A DNA stretch of 64,000 nt from Terriglobia bacterium. GTDB taxonomy: Bacteria > Acidobacteriota > Terriglobia > Terriglobales > Acidobacteriaceae. The first letter of the stretch is position 1, and the number at the start of each line of letters is the position of its first letter. Location: the NCBI GenBank assembly GCA_020072845.1, contig JAIQGF010000010.1, forward strand, positions 62,001 through 126,000. Direction: 5' to 3'. The notes beneath the pieces were generated by a model. The model saw only the letters and a list, made by a program, of their open reading frames with translations, was not told the origin of the DNA and made no database searches. Positions 6,530-58,579 of the stretch are shown here, one piece after another. Made by a program: the position numbers and the translations under genes.

Positions 6530-7042
6530 ACAGTTTATGGTCCTTTAGGAGCGGCGATTCCGCCGCCGGCTAACTTCACAGTCCATCGACCGTCGTCCTG
6601 CCAGAGTCAATTCGTGGATCGAAACTGGCAGGCACTGTCATGGCGGTAGCATACGGCGACAGCAGCGGATTTGTATCCAGATGGACCCGTAATTGGTAAT
6701 CGGGCAGGGTTACTGCCGGGTCAAGCCGGCTTCGACTTTTTCTATGCAAGTGGTGTCAGGCATTGGTTTTGCAGAATCCCGCACACGCCACTCTCCGAGG
6801 TGCGCCTTTGGGCGGCTCTGTCTCCTATCCCCGCTCGGGTTTCACCAATCCGTGGACGGTTCCAAACCTTGCTGAAATTCCATCAGGGAAACGCACGTCA
6901 GAGGTGGCCATCGAGCAGACCAGCACGCATCACGTGAACGCGCTAACTCCCCTGCGCTGCCGCCGCGTTTTCCACACAGCAGCCGCGATTTCCACAGCAC
7001 CGAACCATTCTGATAACGCGTATGCTGCGCAGGAGGATTCCT
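6530..7042. other. intergenic stretch, no gene seen
   Basis: About 510 bases between a minus-strand secreted protein and a DUF2934 gene. The left end must hold the promoter of the minus-strand gene, but I cannot fix it. A short GC-rich inverted repeat (GCGGCGATTCCGCCGC) lies near 6551-6566. No reading frame here has convincing start signals or composition. Two TTTCCACA-like words near 6970-7000 resemble DnaA boxes weakly. Confidence 0.5.
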
Positions 7043-7288
7043 ATGGCCGCAAGCACGACATTACGCACGCAACCGTCACCGCAGCCCGTTCAAACAACTG
7101 ACCTGCCGGTGACAACTTCCGCTTTGCCGGAAGTTCCAGCCAACATCCTCTCCGCTGATGCTACCGAGGCAATTCGCGTCCGCGCCTATGAGCTTTGGGA
7201 AAAACGCGGGCGACAGCACGGCGGCGATGCCGAGGATTGGCTCGAAGCCGAAGCCGAAATACTGGCGCGCAGATCACACGATGCTTGA
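7043..7288 (+). CDS. DUF2934 family protein
   Basis: The 81-residue protein has a low-complexity Thr/Pro/Gln N-terminus and the short DUF2934 motif (about residues 45-75), recognised by IRVRAYELWEKRGR and a downstream DAEDWLEAEAEI. The function of the family is unknown. It is common in soil bacteria such as Acidobacteriota and rhizobia. I chose the ATG at 7043 because a perfect AGGAGG (7031-7036) precedes it with 6-base spacing; an earlier ATG at 7022 lacks this. Confidence 0.85.
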   Translation: MAASTTLRTQPSPQPVQTTDLPVTTSALPEVPANILSADATEAIRVRAYELWEKRGRQHGGDAEDWLEAEAEILARRSHDA

Positions 7289-7385
7289 GTTGTGATCAGC
7301 AGGTCCTCGTAGTTTGGTGCTCGGGAGCGCTTGCCTAGCAGCCCCGCTCCCGCGCCCACGCCCGCGCATTCGACCGCGCGCTAAC

Positions 7386-7403
7386 TGCACACAAAATGGT
7401 GCA
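7386..7403. repeat. 18-bp near-palindrome TGCACACAAANNNGTGCA, copy 1
   Basis: First of three copies of the same motif (others at 10725-10742 and 14761-14778). The arms TGCAC and GTGCA are identical in all three, as is the ACAAA after the left arm; only three loop bases differ (ATG here). It lies in the 360-base gap before the nuclease-like gene. The rest of the gap (7289-7651) is GC-rich with no gene; a TAGAAT at 7631-7636 may be the -10 box of the next gene. Confidence 0.8.
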
Positions 7404-7651
7404 CACTCGGCAGGCGTAGACACAACGGTGCCGAATAGGTTCGACTCGCACGCGGACGTCCTGTTTTTTCCGCCTCGCGGCCGGCGCGGGCGCGGGGAAC
7501 TTCCCCACCCCTTCGGATTCGCTCAGGGCAGGCTCTGTCTCGCCCCTTCAACTGCGCTCGGGCTCCAGGAAGCGAAAGGGCGGGCCACCCGCGATTGTCA
7601 TTTTGCTCGGCATACCGGGTATTAGCTGGTTAGAATTGCGGCACATTCAAA

Positions 7652-10600
7652 ATGCCTGACACGCCTCCAAAAACCATCAGCGAGGACACGAAAGTAGATG
7701 AGCATTTTGCTGCTGCTCGAACTCAGGAGCGCATCACTTCCGTGTCCCCGAAGGTGACGCCCGAAGAAGCAGCGAAGCTCATCAGATTCGCTCTGTCTGA
7801 ACTGAGTGCTGAGAACGCCCATCACGATTTCGAACACCTGTGCCGGCATTTAACGCGCCGCAGGGTATGTCCGAACATCATCCCGGCCACTGGCCCTGTT
7901 GCTGGGGGTGGTGATCAAGGAGCTGACTTCGAAACGTATAAAGTGGCATCTAGCCCAGAGCAGTCTACGTTTTTTTCGCGGGCAACTGTGGAGAAATGGG
8001 TCTTCGCCTGTTCACTAGAAAAGAATTACAAGAAGAAAATCAGAAGCGACCTGGCCGCCGCAAAGGTGTTGGGAGAACCTGTATCACGTCTGGTGTTCTT
8101 TCATCACCTCTCCATCAAGACTAGCGACAGGCACCGTCTCAAGAAAGAGGCACTCGAAAACTACGGAATTGACCTGGAGATTTTTGACGGTCCGGCAATC
8201 GCAGAAATGTTGGCTGATCGCGAAACTGCCTGGATCGCTCAGCGATACCTCAGCTTGCCGAGCGAATTTGTTCTTCTTCCTGAGTCGCCACCCCCCACCT
8301 GGTTCCAGGCAGTCATTGCGAAAAGCTACGACCCGCATCGCCTCACAACGGCAGACTTCTTCGAACTGAAGGATGCCATTCGATTCGCGACTTGGCATCC
8401 CGAGCATCACAGTGACCTCGACAGATTGTTGGGCCACATTCGACAATTCAGAAAACATGCATTTCCGCGTATCAGCCGACAAGCAATTTATGAGGAGTTT
8501 GTCGCCTCATTGCGAGGCTTAGAAACAACTACCGGTCTCGAGCAGTCTCTGCGCGATTACTTCAGGGACATAGACACGCTTGACGATCCTGCCGATGTAG
8601 AAGACGGCGCTGTCTTGGTAGGGTATGCGCTTGGAGCTGTGATGCGAGAGGTGCTAGATCTTCCAATTAGTGAGTTGAAGACATGGCACGAAGCCCTGAC
8701 GAATCGAACGAAGATACTGCTAGCGCAGAGCACATCGGCAGGCAGGGAGTGTGCCTATTTATTCGTTCAGGGGTACCTGTCTTTCAGTAGATGGATGACG
8801 ACAACAAACGATAAGAGAACTGAATTCGAAAGAAGTGTTGAGTCGGCCGTGGCGAGGTGGCGAACGCTTGTAAAACGAATTCCAGATTCTCCACTCTTTC
8901 CGGTTCATCGCCTTGCAAATCTGATCAATGAATTGATCGTACAGCTGCATGGCATTAGCGGTGTATCGCAGCTGGTGCGTGACGTTGACGAACTATCCGT
9001 GAAGCGTTCTGGTCAGCACAAACTTGCGGAACACCACCGCAATCGTGCCATGGCCTACGTCAAAGATAAACAATACATTCGAGCTTTGGACGAACTCCAT
9101 AGGGCTCACACTTCGTTCACCGCGGAAACTGCTTTCGAAGCTATTGCGGTCTGCCTGAAACTGTCCAGCGTGTACGCGGAAATGAGTCTGTTCTTTGCTG
9201 CGAAGTACTACAGTCTGGCGGCCGTTTTCGCTGCCTTGAAACTGCCTGACGAAAAGTTGCGGCAGTTTGCATACATTGGGTGTGCCGAGGCTGCGTCTGC
9301 CGACCACGCATCGGGAGGGTCCCTACTGTTTTACCTCACCGCTCGGTTGTTCATGCTAATCACCTCCGAATACTCGATGGGAGGGAGCGAAGAGCGAAGG
9401 CAGCACGAATGGGCTCGCATTGACTTCTACGGGTTGCTGCTGGCGCGTGGTGCGAGTCTGGTGTTCGACCGACTACAGAAAGTCCTAGTGGAAACAGTTC
9501 TGCCGTCGCTGGACCAGCGTGAAATTTACGACGATTCACGAGACAAGCTCAATGGTTTTTTCTCGGACATAGGAGATGCACAGGCATTGGCGGCCAAGGC
9601 CACGTCACAAGGAATTGCGCCCCCTTTTTCGGACGTTGGAGGAAGGCGTAAAGCAGCATGGCGACAGATGGGCATCAATTGGCATTTCGAATGGCAGACC
9701 GCCTACGACACCGACCGACAGGCTCAGGCACTTGCCGCATACCTACAAATATTGCTCGCGGAATTCGCCAGAACGGAGCTATCCATCATTCCCGGCGAAG
9801 TCTTCGTTGTGGTCCAGGTGCATGATAAGCCGCTCGAGATTAAAGAAATTGCAGATAACGAGCAGGTTCGTCGGGTCGTGCGTCTGCCAAGAGGCGCCAA
9901 AGACACAAAGGGCCAGCTGCCAGGCATTGCCTCGGCAGTCGCATCAGTTCTGCTGAAAACTGTTTCGGCGCTACCCGAGAAAAGGTTCTTGACGCTGTAC
10001 ACGCAGCAGCTGAAAAGGGGCCTGATGGCACGGCTGAGTGTGTACCGTCCGAGCGAATCACTGTTCGACGAGTTCTACGACCGCGAGTCATATTCACAGA
10101 TCTACGCAGTTGGTGGCTCAAGCTTCGTCCGCATGCCTGACTACGTCATACGAACATGGGAAGGGCTCGACGGACCGCAAGGAACGCATAGTGAATACAA
10201 CAGAGCTGAATCGCTGAAATTAGTTCGAAACCGATACGACCGCCTGGCCCCGCTGACACGAAAGACAGTAGCTCGTCTGATAACGGATGAAAGTTTTCGT
10301 CGCACCGTTGCGACTTTGAGGGGTGAGGGTTGGAAGGATTGGCATATCCTCTCGGCTATCGAATGCGCAAAGTTTAACTATGTGCTGAATAAGGACCCAA
10401 GTTTGCGAGAGGCCTTTGACCGCGGTGACCAAGCTACAGTTCTGAAATACAGATCAAGACCAGAAGAAGAAGGAGACGCGGAGGTCCCATTAGAAGAATT
10501 CACAGCTGAACAGTTGAAGCTTCAGATCAAAATAACGCAACTGTCGACTCTAAAGGGACTCGGCCTCGGTGTCTGGCAATCAACGCCAAATTTTCGAGGC

Positions 10601-10684
10601 GTCGATACGCTGCTGCGACGATTCCACTACTGGGACGACGACGTGCCACACAGCGAAGTTTTTCCACTGCCAAACGCGAGTTGA
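7652..10684 (+). CDS. large predicted nuclease with helical C-terminal region, candidate defence protein
   Basis: The 1010-residue soluble protein has an N-terminal region (about 40-200) that fits a PD-(D/E)XK-type nuclease: Glu61 in DFEHLC, GGGDQGADFE at 85-94 with Asp88 and Asp92, then ACSLEKNYKKKI at 119-130. The following YGIDLEIFDGPAIAEML (171-187) has the look of the strand-helix seen after this core in other large predicted defence nucleases. The remaining 800 residues are helical and contain TPR-like stretches (for example 455-530). GC content is clearly lower than in the flanking genes, which suggests recent gain. There is no ribosome site, and it stands alone between two copies of the 18-bp motif. 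Substrate and role are not known. Confidence 0.7.
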   Translation: MPDTPPKTISEDTKVDEHFAAARTQERITSVSPKVTPEEAAKLIRFALSELSAENAHHDFEHLCRHLTRRRVCPNIIPATGPVAGGGDQGADFETYKVASSPEQSTFFSRATVEKWVFACSLEKNYKKKIRSDLAAAKVLGEPVSRLVFFHHLSIKTSDRHRLKKEALENYGIDLEIFDGPAIAEMLADRETAWIAQRYLSLPSEFVLLPESPPPTWFQAVIAKSYDPHRLTTADFFELKDAIRFATWHPEHHSDLDRLLGHIRQFRKHAFPRISRQAIYEEFVASLRGLETTTGLEQSLRDYFRDIDTLDDPADVEDGAVLVGYALGAVMREVLDLPISELKTWHEALTNRTKILLAQSTSAGRECAYLFVQGYLSFSRWMTTTNDKRTEFERSVESAVARWRTLVKRIPDSPLFPVHRLANLINELIVQLHGISGVSQLVRDVDELSVKRSGQHKLAEHHRNRAMAYVKDKQYIRALDELHRAHTSFTAETAFEAIAVCLKLSSVYAEMSLFFAAKYYSLAAVFAALKLPDEKLRQFAYIGCAEAASADHASGGSLLFYLTARLFMLITSEYSMGGSEERRQHEWARIDFYGLLLARGASLVFDRLQKVLVETVLPSLDQREIYDDSRDKLNGFFSDIGDAQALAAKATSQGIAPPFSDVGGRRKAAWRQMGINWHFEWQTAYDTDRQAQALAAYLQILLAEFARTELSIIPGEVFVVVQVHDKPLEIKEIADNEQVRRVVRLPRGAKDTKGQLPGIASAVASVLLKTVSALPEKRFLTLYTQQLKRGLMARLSVYRPSESLFDEFYDRESYSQIYAVGGSSFVRMPDYVIRTWEGLDGPQGTHSEYNRAESLKLVRNRYDRLAPLTRKTVARLITDESFRRTVATLRGEGWKDWHILSAIECAKFNYVLNKDPSLREAFDRGDQATVLKYRSRPEEEGDAEVPLEEFTAEQLKLQIKITQLSTLKGLGLGVWQSTPNFRGVDTLLRRFHYWDDDVPHSEVFPLPNAS

Positions 10685-10723
10685 TGTTTGATCTGAAATC
10701 GCCAGTAAATTGCACATAAGCCT

Positions 10724-11183
10724 TTGCACACAAACCAGTGCAGGAATAGCGGTTTCCCCGTTCGTATAGCTATCCCCCGCTTGAGTTTGACCCGCCCGCT
10801 GCGCAGCCCGTACACTTAGAATTCAGCCCCGCCCTAGGCCAGCTCGAGGCGCGGCGTCGGTGCGCCTTGGGACCCCGGAGAGCTTCAGGAGCTATGTGTT
10901 AACGCGATTTTCCCGTCAACTGGCGCTGTCGGCCCTGTGCCTGCTGGCGCTTCCCGCCGCGGCGCAGACCACGTCCAAGATCAGCCTGGACTCCAGCGAG
11001 GCCATCTTCAGCGTGGTGGCCGCGATGCGCAACTGCGGCTACGACGCCGGGTCCACCGATCCGTTCCGCACACAGGTCAGCGGCGAAATCGCGCAGGCGG
11101 TGGGCGCGTCGCGGGAAGCGCAGGCGGCCAGCCGGGAGATGTGCAGGTTTTATCGCGATCACCAGCAGGCGGACTCGGCGCGC
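10724..11183 (+). repeat. 460-bp direct repeat, left copy
   Basis: This segment and 14760-15219 have the same length and by eye are roughly 85-90% identical. Each starts with the 18-bp motif, then carries a promoter, a ribosome site and the first ~95 codons of a secreted TPR protein. Similarity ends abruptly after GGACTCGGCGCGC in both. The sugar cassette lies between the two copies. Confidence 0.9.
10787..10816 (+). promoter_or_regulatory. sigma-70-type promoter in left repeat copy
   Basis: TTGACC (10787-10792) and TACACT (10811-10816) are 18 bases apart. The equivalent elements in the right copy are TTGACC and TAAACT. Here the promoter drives the truncated gene and, by overlap, the sugar cassette. 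Confidence 0.6.
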
Positions 11184-14759: not shown

Positions 14760-15219
14760 TTGCACACAAACTTGTGCAGGGGGTGAATGTTCCCGTTGCA
14801 ATCGCTATCTCCCGCTTGCGTTTGACCCGTCCGGCGCGTAGCCCGTAAACTTAGGATTCAGCCCCCGCCCTAGGCCAGCTCGAGGCGCGGCGTTGGTGCG
14901 CCTTGGGACCCCGGAGAGCTTCAGGAGCTATGTGTTAACGCGATTTTCCCGTCAACTGGTGCTTGCGGCCCTGTGCCTGCTCGCGCTTCCCGCCGCGGCT
15001 CAGACCACGTCCAAGATCAGCCTGGACTCCAGCGAGACCATCTTCAGCGTGGTGGCCGCGATGCGCAATTGCGGCTACGACGCCGGGTCCACGGATGCGT
15101 TCCGCACGCAGGTCAGCGGCGAAATCGCGCAGGCGGTGGGCGCGTCGAAGGAAGCGCAGGCGGCCAGCTCGGAGATGTGCGCGTTTTATCGCGATCACCA
15201 GCAGGCGGACTCGGCGCGC
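14760..15219 (+). repeat. 460-bp direct repeat, right copy
   Basis: This copy begins with the 18-bp motif (14761-14778), ten bases after the GT39 stop. It ends within the TPR gene, which continues intact beyond it, so this is the native copy and the left one is the derived copy. Confidence 0.9.
14822..14851 (+). promoter_or_regulatory. sigma-70-type promoter of the TPR protein gene
   Basis: TTGACC (14822-14827) and TAAACT (14846-14851) are 18 bases apart, 80 bases before the GTG start. The layout is conserved in the left repeat copy. Confidence 0.55.
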
Positions 15220-16422
15220 GACCTGGCGCAGTACGTCTCGCTGGCGCTGTTCCTCGGCGCGCCTCCGACATTCACCTTGAAGGTGAAGGAGGCCGATCTC
15301 CCGCCGGACGCCAGTTACGTCCTGGGGTTCGTGCCGTTGCTGGCGCGCTTCGCGGAAACCGCCAATCTTCATCGCATCTGGCAGGAGCATCGCTACCAGT
15401 ACGAGGAGCTTATCGGGCGCTTCCACGAACCGGTTTCGAAGATGATCCTCACCACCGACGTATATTTGCGCCTGCCGCTCAGCGGGTACGTGGGACGCGG
15501 CTTCACCGTGTACCTGGAACCGATGGCGGCGGCCGGCCAGGTGAACGCGCGCAATTACGGCTCGGACTACTTCATGGTGGCCGCTCCGGCGGGCGCCAGC
15601 CTGCGCATGGACCAGATCCGCCACACCTATCTGCACTTCATCCTCGACCCGCTGCTGCTGAAGCGCGCCAACGCGATGGTGCGCGTGGTGCCAATTCTCA
15701 AGACGGTGCAGAACGCGCCGCTGGACGAAGTGCACAAGAAAGACGTGTCGCTGCTGCTGACCGAATCGCTGATCCGGGCGGTGGAAGCGCGCCTGGCGGC
15801 CGGCGGGCGCAACGCCGAACCGGTGCGGCAGGCCGAAGCCGACAAGGCGATGTCGGAAGGCTACGTCCTGACCCGCTATTTCTACGAGCAATTGGTGAAG
15901 TTCGAAACCGAGCCTACCGGCCTGCGCGACGCGCTGCCGGACTGGCTGTACTACCTGGACGTGGGCCGCGAGACCAAGCGCGCCGAGAATGTCCGGTTTG
16001 CCCCGGCGGCGGCGCCGGACGTGCTGCCGGTATCGAGTCCCAAGTTCGGGTTGCTGGAACTGGCCGAGCAGCGGCTGGATGCCGGCGATTACGACAGCGC
16101 ACACAAGCTGGCGGAGCAGGCGCTCGATCAGAAGACGGAGGACCCCGGGCGCGCACTGTTTATCCTGGCGCGGGCGGCCAGCTTCAACAAAGACATGCCC
16201 GGCGCGCGCGATTACTTCGAGCGCACGGTACAGGTGGCGCGCGACCCGCGCCTGCGTGCCTGGGCGCACATTTATTTGGGGCGGATTTCCGACATCCAGG
16301 AAAACCGCCCGGCGGCGCTGGAGCACTACAAGGCGGCGCTGGCCGTGGCCGGCATTCCGGCGGACACGCGGGCGGCGGCGGAGCGCGGTCTGCAACAGCC
16401 GTACGAGCCGCAACGTCCATAA
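14932..16422 (+). CDS. secreted TPR-repeat protein
   Basis: I start at GTG 14932, preceded by AGGAG at 14923-14927, giving a 496-residue protein with a clean signal peptide (LTRFSRQLVLAALCLLALPAAAQ). The middle region is not recognised. The C-terminal ~110 residues carry tetratricopeptide repeats (LLELAEQRLDAGDYDSAHKLAEQALDQ, AHIYLGRISDIQENRPAALEHYKAALAV). It is likely periplasmic. Its 5' 290 bases are duplicated at 10896. It is followed 53 bases later by another secreted TPR-like gene. Confidence 0.8.
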   Translation: MLTRFSRQLVLAALCLLALPAAAQTTSKISLDSSETIFSVVAAMRNCGYDAGSTDAFRTQVSGEIAQAVGASKEAQAASSEMCAFYRDHQQADSARDLAQYVSLALFLGAPPTFTLKVKEADLPPDASYVLGFVPLLARFAETANLHRIWQEHRYQYEELIGRFHEPVSKMILTTDVYLRLPLSGYVGRGFTVYLEPMAAAGQVNARNYGSDYFMVAAPAGASLRMDQIRHTYLHFILDPLLLKRANAMVRVVPILKTVQNAPLDEVHKKDVSLLLTESLIRAVEARLAAGGRNAEPVRQAEADKAMSEGYVLTRYFYEQLVKFETEPTGLRDALPDWLYYLDVGRETKRAENVRFAPAAAPDVLPVSSPKFGLLELAEQRLDAGDYDSAHKLAEQALDQKTEDPGRALFILARAASFNKDMPGARDYFERTVQVARDPRLRAWAHIYLGRISDIQENRPAALEHYKAALAVAGIPADTRAAAERGLQQPYEPQRP

Positions 16423-56356: not shown

Positions 56357-58579
56357 ATGCTGTGGTGGACATTGCGACAGCTTAGGTCAGAGAACCTGAA
56401 CACGCGCGCGACAGCGATCGGAAAGCTGGGCCAATCGGGAGACTCGCGGGCGGTGGAGCCGCTGGCGGCAGCGCTCCTGGATAAGGACTCAATCTTGCGG
56501 GAGGCGGCGGCCGAGGCACTCGGCAGGATCGATCCCAACTGGGCCAGGTCTGAAGCTGCCAAGCGAGTGGTTCCAGCCCTAGTAGCGGCACTAAGGAACG
56601 AGGACTGTGGCATGCGGCGCGCGGCGGCGGAGATCTTGGGGAAAATAGCCGACACCCGGGCTGTGGAACCGCTGGTGGTAGCACTCAGGGACACGGAGTA
56701 CCGGGTGCGGCAGGTAGCGGCGGAGACTTTGGGCAGGATCGGCGACTCTCGGGCGTTGGAGCCGCTGATGGCAGGGCTCGGCGACCACGAGTCAGATGTG
56801 CGAAAGGCAGCGACGGAGGCACTCGAGCGAATCGACCCGAATTGGGCGAGGTCAAGAGCCGCTAGCCGAGCCGTTCCCATCGTGCTGGAGGCCCTCAACC
56901 ACAAGAACTCCGCCGTGCGGCAGACCGCGGCGGCAGCCCTGGGGAAGATCGGTGACGCCCGGGCGGTAGAGCCCCTGGTCGCGGCACTGGAGGACAGCGT
57001 CTCTGACGTGCGGCGAGAAGCTGCGACAGAACTGGACCGAATCGACCCCGACTGGCGCAGATCCGAAGCTGCCAAGCGGGCCGTTCCCACGCTACTAGAG
57101 GCACTCAAGGATAGGGCGAAACAGTGGGCAGCAGCGGAAGTCCTGGGCAGCGTTGGCGACGCCCGGGCGGTCGAACCGCTTATGGGGGTGCTCACTGATC
57201 AGCACGCGTACACAGACGCGCGGCAGGCGGCAGCGGAGGCCCTGGCGAAGATTGCCGACAGGCGAGCCGTCGGGTCACTGGTGGCTGTTCTCCCGGACAA
57301 GAACAAACACGTGCGGCAGGCCGCGGCTCAGGCACTCGACCAGATCGACCCCAGTTGGGCCAAATCCGAAGCCGCCAAGCAAGCCGTTCCCACGCTGGTG
57401 GCAGCACTCGCGTACAACGACTCGAATGTGCAGCTGGCCGCGGCGGAAGCGCTCGGGAAGATTGCCGACGGGCGAGCGGTAGAGCCGCTAGCGGCGGCAC
57501 TCGGAGACGAGGACTTACACATGCGGCAGGCTGCGGGGGCGGCACTCGACCGAATCGACGCAAACTGGCCGAAGTGCGAAGCCGCCAAGCGAGCCGTTCC
57601 CGCGCTGGTGGCGGCGCTCAGGCACAGTGCCGAGGACGCGCGGAAGGGAGCGAGGTCTGCACTGGAACGGATCGACCGGGGCTGGGCCAAATCCGAGGCC
57701 GCCAAGCGCGCCGTTCCTACCCTGGTCGCGGCGCTCAAGAGGGACAAGGACGCAGATGTACGCATGCACGCGGCTGCAGTGCTAGGGGAAATCGGCGACG
57801 GACGCGCGCTTGGACCGCTGGCAGCGGCAGTCGCGGATGGGTACTCAGACGTGCAGCGGGCAGCGAAGGAGGCCCTGGGCAACCTCGACGATGCGCGGGC
57901 CGTGGAGCCGCTGCTCGTTATGCTCAAGGGCGGGGATTGCGAGCTACGGTGCGCAGCGGCCAAGGCCCTTGGGAACATCGGTGACCCGCGGGCCATGGAG
58001 CCACTGGTGGCGACACTCAAGGAGAATGACTACGCGCGGCACGAAGCGGTAGAGGCGCTGGTGGAGATCGGGGGCTCCGCCGTAATCGAGACGCTCACGC
58101 CCTTGCTTAGTGACCGCGGTCTCAGCTGGATTGTAGCGGGAGCACTTGCTTCACTTGGCTGGCAACCAGCCAATGATGTCCAACGTGCATGGTTAGCTCT
58201 GGCAAGAAGAAACTGGGGTGAGCTTGCGAACACGGGGGCCGCCGCTGTGGTGCCGTTGATCAGCGTTCTGCAAATTGAGTCGGTAGGTGCTGGTGAGGAC
58301 TTTTCAGCTAGGGAGATACCACGGTCAGCCATCGACACGCTGTACGTGGTTCTGACAAGCAGTGCCACAGGTGTGGCCGCAGAAGACCTGCGCCGGGTTG
58401 GTGGCCTTAAGGACATACCTGTGTATTCATACCAGTATTATGGCTACAGGGAGTCTGATGACGACCTTGATCGGGACCACTGCGAGAGAGTTGAAATCGA
58501 AGCAGAGCGCCCTATTGATTGCTCACGAGTAAGGGATCTCGCCCGGCAGGAGCTAGGAAGGCGTGGGCTAGAAGTCTGA
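56357..58579 (+). CDS. HEAT-repeat protein, insertion-like
   Basis: The 740-residue protein consists of roughly 17 or more HEAT repeats of about 31-45 residues, with the recurring core VRQAAAEALGKIGDARAVEPL and in longer units a linker such as DPNWARSEAAKRAVP. The final ~150 residues are non-repetitive. HEAT arrays bind proteins; some belong to phycobilin lyases or defence scaffolds, but I cannot place this one. A perfect AAAGGAGGTGA ribosome site lies 3-6 bases before the ATG. The gene is bracketed by a repeat and seems to be inserted behind glmS. Confidence 0.8.
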   Translation: MLWWTLRQLRSENLNTRATAIGKLGQSGDSRAVEPLAAALLDKDSILREAAAEALGRIDPNWARSEAAKRVVPALVAALRNEDCGMRRAAAEILGKIADTRAVEPLVVALRDTEYRVRQVAAETLGRIGDSRALEPLMAGLGDHESDVRKAATEALERIDPNWARSRAASRAVPIVLEALNHKNSAVRQTAAAALGKIGDARAVEPLVAALEDSVSDVRREAATELDRIDPDWRRSEAAKRAVPTLLEALKDRAKQWAAAEVLGSVGDARAVEPLMGVLTDQHAYTDARQAAAEALAKIADRRAVGSLVAVLPDKNKHVRQAAAQALDQIDPSWAKSEAAKQAVPTLVAALAYNDSNVQLAAAEALGKIADGRAVEPLAAALGDEDLHMRQAAGAALDRIDANWPKCEAAKRAVPALVAALRHSAEDARKGARSALERIDRGWAKSEAAKRAVPTLVAALKRDKDADVRMHAAAVLGEIGDGRALGPLAAAVADGYSDVQRAAKEALGNLDDARAVEPLLVMLKGGDCELRCAAAKALGNIGDPRAMEPLVATLKENDYARHEAVEALVEIGGSAVIETLTPLLSDRGLSWIVAGALASLGWQPANDVQRAWLALARRNWGELANTGAAAVVPLISVLQIESVGAGEDFSAREIPRSAIDTLYVVLTSSATGVAAEDLRRVGGLKDIPVYSYQYYGYRESDDDLDRDHCERVEIEAERPIDCSRVRDLARQELGRRGLEV

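Follow-up and report, generated by a model that had tools for sequence, protein, structure and literature searches.

What is the role of the large gene at positions 7652-10684 of a 64,000-nucleotide stretch (hereafter the window) of contig JAIQGF010000010.1 from a Terriglobia bacterium (Acidobacteriota)? In this work, we found that its product joins a predicted N-terminal nuclease domain to a long body modelled in part as tetratricopeptide repeats (TPRs). Because its relatives are found amid known antiviral genes and are carried by plasmids, prophages, and phage satellites, the gene probably represents an undescribed family of one-protein phage defence. We consider it fairly likely that the product is a one-protein, horizontally mobile immune receptor, in which the TPR body would sense an invader and unleash the nuclease.

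Predicted domains of the window protein

The open reading frame (ORF) is unbroken and is not a chance frame, since 200 mononucleotide shuffles of the gene's own bases gave no stop-free run above 260 codons in any of the three forward frames and full-length relatives of the protein exist at 25-30% identity. An earlier, sequence-only reading had pointed to low guanine-cytosine (GC) content, and this holds: the gene has a GC content of 0.527 (0.557 at third positions), compared with a mean of 0.619 (standard deviation 0.025) for 3033-bp stretches of the window. The window reaches its lowest GC content at this gene: the lowest-GC stretch of this size begins at 7751, within the gene, and the minimum outside 7000-10700 is 0.580. 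Searches with the 1010-aa protein gave zero matches in Pfam, NCBIfam, and PADLOC (E up to 1) and none in a sequence search of the PDB (E up to 10). The nuclease-bearing relatives tested likewise match no Pfam or PADLOC model, which accounts for the annotation as "hypothetical."

Residues 32-214 were modelled with AlphaFold from nine sequences (that of the window and eight relatives) with a mean predicted local distance difference test score (pLDDT) of 79.7. The model was compared by VIA-align with 999 Foldseek candidates, for which rows under Z 8 may reflect merely a common arrangement. The top match was AspBHI (Z 10.6, root-mean-square deviation [rmsd] 4.3, 146 residues), and Avs4 bound to a phage portal aligned through its residues 2-184 (Z 10.2, rmsd 3.4, 143 residues aligned, 18% identity). 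Other matches were MspJI (Z 10.0), LlaBIII (8.7), FokI (7.8), and Shedu (7.7). A restriction-endonuclease-like fold is well supported by this model and its matches at Z ~10, in line with the nuclease-like N-terminus that had been read from the letters. A PDB sequence search with the nuclease profile found no relative; its one match (E 0.52) was an unrelated synthase and was discarded.

Among 26 aligned nuclease domains, Asp88, Asp92, Lys129, and Asp179 are invariant, together with several glycines and prolines, and Glu61, Glu94, and Asp133 are kept in 25. The alpha-beta core thus carries a glutamate on helix 1 (Glu61) and an aspartate on strand 2 (Asp92). The PD-(D/E)XK-like set proposed earlier was right in part: Glu61, Asp88, and Asp92 stand, whereas Glu123 and Lys124 are not conserved and the invariant lysine is Lys129. 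Based on the modelled fold and this conservation, nuclease activity of residues 32-214 is likely, not certain.

The helical region with TPR-like parts also found its counterpart in the model, where a TPR superhelix spans residues 229-607 (Z 18.5 to the LGN domain, 348 residues aligned). A BFVD search with the full-length model returned mostly generic repeat proteins. Further toward the C-terminus, G893, D896, and W897 are invariant in all 14 core rows, including three forms that bear a Cap4 nuclease. No nucleoside triphosphatase (NTPase) of Pfam was found in the window protein (E up to 1), and the Walker A pattern is lacking in 21 of 22 family proteins, the window protein included. The sole match to this pattern (ALKRAGKT, residue 430 of L008) lies inside the repeat region; nuclease and repeats therefore seem to be joined without the ATPase of STAND receptors.

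Family, effector exchange, and genomic contexts

The 1010-aa protein matches 23 plasmid records, namely, eight with both the nuclease and the window-type body (subfamily I), three from Bacteroidota with the body only, and 12 with the nuclease only. The subfamily I records come from plasmids of Bradyrhizobium, Streptomyces, Agrobacterium, Mycobacterium gordonae, Blastomonas, and Ensifer; further members were found in contigs of Pseudarthrobacter, Acrocarpospora, and a Candidatus Magasanikbacteria metagenome-assembled genome (MAG). The Bradyrhizobium copy spans two annotated ORFs and was omitted from alignments, and the Magasanikbacteria copy disintegrates near its end. Eight of the 12 nuclease-only records, as examined, belong to subfamily II, which has a nuclease with ~30% identity to that of the window. 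Its body is homologous to that of subfamily I (hhalign 98.8%, E 1.1e-16, 514 columns), and blastp between the two bodies gave scattered partial matches. The eight subfamily II plasmid proteins, from Alpha- and Betaproteobacteria, Cohnella, and Nostoc, match zero PADLOC families (E up to 0.1). This subfamily also occurs in one unverified fecal phage record, five IMG/VR contigs, and Escherichia coli; when viral contigs were scanned with queries from subfamily I or the Cap4-bearing form, no relative appeared, and subfamily II alone was found there.

The effector at the N-terminus is swapped in part of the family. The body (about residues 217-1007) is matched at 22-23% identity in three Bacteroidota plasmid proteins, two from Hymenobacter and one from Fibrella, and this same body bears a Cap4-type nuclease in all three. 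In the protein of Hymenobacter DG01 (L015), the N-terminus is a Cap4 nuclease (Pfam PF14130, E 4.9e-8); L015 was the only one of the three scanned against Pfam for Cap4, and the other two (L014 and L016) align to it. Conversely, at a locus in a genome of the same class as that of the window (L034), a related nuclease (E 3e-5; hhalign 94.3%, E 1.1e-7) precedes a STAND-like protein, for which the assignment is to nSTAND_NTPase5 at E 0.009, below the cut-off of that model, with weak HEAT matches. Taken together, these two cases make effector and body look exchangeable. Core-only searches, which are insensitive and scored a maximum of two to three candidates per genome, revealed no new N-terminal type: in the phylum of G776, one of 396 genomes matched, which is the seed, and in the class of G777, three of 296 matched (the seed, one 335-aa frame, and one at E 8.1e-4). 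A Pantoea plasmid protein (L083) was considered as a further N-terminal type and rejected; with the body in one ORF and nuclease pieces upstream in another frame, it is a broken subfamily II copy.

The family is rare. Excluding the window's own genome, it occurs in one of 60 relatives (where the match is confined to the nuclease part), in 10 of 398 members of the class, and in three of 395 of the phylum (two of 61, 11 of 399, and four of 396 with the own genome counted); most of the other matches in these counts are partial and local, some of them weak (E 1e-3 to 1e-5) or directed at subfamily II. The relatives that share 25-30% identity with the window protein are scattered over Pseudomonadota, Actinomycetota, and the one Magasanikbacteria MAG. 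Across 27 loci, no conserved partner gene was found, and at most four loci share a neighbour cluster. A further correction to the sequence-only reading is that the gene falls within a group of two subfamilies whose distribution is patchy.

The neighbourhoods of these relatives include known defence genes. At seven of the eight subfamily I plasmid loci, 92 neighbour proteins match 88 PADLOC families (E 1e-10), compared with eight families matched by 94 control proteins from 20-kb stretches elsewhere on six of the same plasmids. Neighbours were taken within 10 kb, omitting genes cut by an edge, a few others, and the hardly annotated locus L012. Among 25 listed of the 88 families are SduA, DarT, DarG, IetA, defence reverse transcriptases, and PDC candidates. 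In the kind of families matched, the contrast with the controls is clear. Annotated neighbours include Shedu, DUF4433 and macro-domain genes, ABC-three-component genes with a reverse transcriptase, pairs of AAA and S8 peptidase genes, HEPN or nucleotidyltransferase genes, and AbiE-type genes. One relative adjoins DUF1837 and helicase genes, which we take to be similar to Hachiman. The four-locus neighbour cluster (L012, L013, L019, and L041) spans both subfamilies and is annotated as a protein kinase at L013 and L019; L012 is closely related to L013. The two Hymenobacter loci have many neighbours in common, since they are closely related.

In E. coli, subfamily II is represented by WP_039268304.1 (1083 aa), which shows 26-30% identity to the eight subfamily II plasmid proteins, has Gln at the position of Glu94, and has no Pfam match and zero PADLOC families (E up to 0.1). 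Among 5426 complete E. coli genomes, it is matched with at least 80% query coverage in 23 and with any match in 26. At both sites examined, the gene has an integrase remnant on one side and an intact integrase on the other. One site follows phage tail genes and precedes satellite-type genes (ash family and TOPRIM/DUF927), which are presumably P4-like; the other is near mscS. According to Rousset et al. (PMC9122126), the integrase-adjacent cargo of P4-like satellites holds defence systems. Among the E. coli copies, H62 and H72 are cut by an insertion sequence (IS1B or IS903B), H64 and H76-H78 are annotated as two proteins, and H79 is partial; such broken or partial copies suggest a cost or frequent loss.

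The defence role that had been supposed for the gene gains independent support, and the homologues whose neighbourhoods were read lie in mobile or defence contexts with no shared housekeeping position. These contexts also bear on another explanation, in which the protein is a weapon between mobile elements that protects its own plasmid, satellite, or prophage against other plasmids and phages, not the cell against lytic phages. The 23 plasmid records, the IMG/VR contigs, and the sites beside E. coli integrases speak for it. However, the Pseudarthrobacter member of subfamily I (L004) lies in a contig of 4.8 Mb and, given this size, is chromosomal, and the mechanism could be the same, such that this explanation overlaps with an immune receptor of the cell. 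We regard it as unlikely.

Dyads, a duplication, and other features of the window locus

The coordinates of the gene, its parts, and the surrounding repeats are collected in Table 1.

Table 1. Features at the window locus (positions within the 64,000-nucleotide window).
Feature	Positions	Strand	Basis
Nuclease-TPR protein gene	7652..10684	+	ORF with ATG start, translation of 1010 aa, full-length relatives
N-terminal nuclease domain, residues 32-214, restriction-endonuclease-like fold (predicted)	7745..8293	+	AlphaFold model and structural alignment
Asp88-to-Glu94 motif codons (Asp88, Asp92, Glu94)	7913..7933	+	Conservation over 26 nuclease domains
Lys129 codon, lysine on helix after strand 3	8036..8038	+	26/26
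TPR-like superhelix, residues 229-607	8336..9472	+	Structural match to LGN TPR domain 3sf4
C-terminal part, residues 660-1010, strands and helices, G893-D896-W897	9629..10681	+	Conserved columns; much modelled at low confidence
18-bp dyad TGCACACAAA-ATG-GTGCA, left of gene	7386..7403	+	Genome count and shuffles
18-bp dyad, right of gene	10725..10742	+	Genome count and shuffles
Third 18-bp dyad, far end of adjoining sugar-gene segment	14761..14778	+	Genome count and shuffles
460-bp copy of 14760-15219	10724..11183	+	91% identity (window self-comparison)
Second 460-bp copy, joined to intact gene	14760..15219	+	Same gene in contigs of G001-G003

The three copies of the dyad TGCACACAAANNNGTGCA (TGCAC-N8-GTGCA) have the same orientation and are the only ones in the 4.23-Mb genome when up to one mismatch is allowed. 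Window shuffles contain 0.01 on average, and single mismatched copies were found in six of 20 related genomes. The first two copies, at 7386 and 10725, lie on either side of the gene, at distances of 249 bp from its start and 41 bp from its stop; these are the boundary motifs that the sequence-only reading had named, and the horizontal gain that it suggested is independently supported by the low GC content and by this locus-unique bracketing.

The second and third dyads open the two copies of a 460-bp direct repeat, between which lie epimerase and glycosyltransferase genes. The repeated stretch covers the 5' end of a TPR gene (14893-16422), located two genes before RNase III, together with the sequence on its upstream side, and it is single, before that gene, in the contigs of three genomes of the same genus. 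This direct duplication gives the impression that an element pushed aside the start of the TPR gene and took its place. That two independent dyads, of which one is duplicated, border acquired segments is suggestive of site-specific insertion. Judging from its placement, the dyad is possibly a recombination site at the edges of two adjacent acquired segments; it may instead be an operator. To the left of the first dyad is a gene for a small DUF2934 protein (7022-7288). Elsewhere in the window, self-comparison revealed mutually similar repeats at 56438-57913 that are 65-76% identical.

Known systems, proposed mechanism, and significance

By build, the closest known system is Avs4 (AVAST type 4, 8dgf), which we take to be a large phage-sensing protein with an N-terminal nuclease and a C-terminal sensor of helical repeats or TPR type. 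The window protein has an N-terminal effector of the Avs kind with the same restriction-endonuclease-like fold (the match at Z 10.2 above), and its model contains a TPR fold. It differs from Avs4 in that no STAND NTPase was detected by Pfam or, as described above, by the Walker A pattern; because this domain was tested for and not found, the protein does not qualify as a member of Avs. To our knowledge, the switch in prokaryotic immune receptors that combine a nuclease and a TPR-type sensor is mainly a STAND ATPase.

We infer a corresponding mode of sensing, gating, DNA cleavage, and phage defence. The TPR superhelix and the C-terminal part (about residues 215-1010) would bind a molecule from an invading phage or another mobile element, and this binding may release or oligomerise the N-terminal restriction-endonuclease-like domain. 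The freed nuclease would then cut DNA, by which the invader is restricted or the infected cell is stopped. Such a protein would work like Avs4, minus the STAND ATPase switch between nuclease and sensor.

The principal alternative is a modification-dependent (type IV-like) restriction enzyme, in which the C-terminal body reads modified phage DNA and the N-terminal domain cuts. AspBHI, described as modification-dependent in the title of its entry, and MspJI, which we assume to be so as well, are among the best matches to the nuclease fold. In contrast, the middle of the window protein is a TPR-type superhelix, which is a fold of the protein-binding kind. Pfam (E up to 1) gave no DNA-reading domain, including any reader of modified bases, with the C-terminal third, where such a reader may still lie, poorly modelled, and the same body occurs with a Cap4-type nuclease in Bacteroidota. 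We therefore judge a restriction enzyme of this kind rather unlikely.

Cap4 and LmuA, the effectors of CBASS and Lamassu, resemble the family through the Bacteroidota proteins, where a Cap4 nuclease precedes this body; matches to LmuA are weak (best E 1.1e-5). The window protein differs from them in its nuclease and in the missing conserved partner; the Lamassu partner, the SMC protein LmuB, was found neither by PADLOC on the nine ORFs around the gene nor as a partner common to the 27 loci. STAND-TPR proteins of the P4 satellite hotspot are also similar in having an exchangeable N-terminal effector (TIR, SIR2, Mrr_cat, or BpuSI_N), C-terminal repeats, and a place in satellite cargo, but they possess a STAND NTPase, which was not detected here (PMC9122126). 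Two studies present vWA or STAND systems with such effectors, in passages that do not contain an ATPase-free nuclease-TPR form (PMC7159879; PMC9122126). In the DefensePredictor study (PMC13092281), 42 E. coli systems were validated, 13 of 31 in one group have PD-(D/E)XK nucleases, and TPR is among the figure abbreviations. The E. coli relative could be one of these systems. The family was not found in the literature by title or start of the abstract, a comparison outside which the DefensePredictor system tables lie. One paper returned by a literature search with accession numbers was matched by a short accession prefix and does not concern a family member.

Several observations weigh against an immune receptor and have to be set beside the computed nuclease fold, TPR array, absent NTPase signature, effector exchange, patchy distribution, and mobile or defence context. 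With Foldseek alone, the nuclease model had no match at E 0.001 or better (best: the endonuclease EcoT38I, E 0.0044). The full-length model was built from four sequences and is of moderate quality (pLDDT 61), the TPR match to LGN has an rmsd of 8.6, and beyond about residue 600 the model is largely poor, with the C-terminal third mostly uninterpretable. The control stretches on the plasmids also match PADLOC families, namely, mad3 and mad8 (four proteins each), restriction-modification enzymes, PbeA, and Toprim-ATPase, and they contain toxin-antitoxin genes too. Furthermore, the comparison counts models, not proteins, and many of the 88 trace to a single reverse transcriptase. The nine ORFs around the window gene have zero PADLOC matches, which is the sole point for a housekeeping nuclease of DNA repair or RNA processing. 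This explanation, already disfavoured, is very improbable in view of the near absence from other relatives, the low GC content, and the mobile context of the family.

Finally, position 121, the expected site of the strand-3 (D/E)xK lysine, is Ser or Thr in all 26 domains. With the usual lysine missing, catalysis would need Lys129 or a displaced lysine; lysine migration occurs within the PD-(D/E)XK superfamily. The same position favours a catalytically dead nuclease fold that merely binds nucleic acid or dimerises, with the active part elsewhere. However, Asp88, Asp92, and Lys129 are invariant and Glu94 is nearly so over 26 diverse sequences, and a Cap4-type nuclease occupies the same place in the cousins of this family, which makes a dead domain quite unlikely.

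A wider and more tentative idea, which we consider doubtful, is that such proteins are widespread ATP-free immune receptors, in which a TPR superhelix directly gates an exchangeable nuclease (this one or Cap4) with no STAND switch, as a single-gene cassette moving between copies of the 18-bp dyad. If true, they would represent the NLR/Avs logic in minimal form or the origin of the STAND versions, which would have arisen by insertion of an ATPase. The family has the same two ends as these receptors with no ATPase detected, and its effectors are exchanged on one body, by which ATP-free gating of a nuclease becomes testable; the E. coli member WP_039268304.1 opens this test in laboratory strains.

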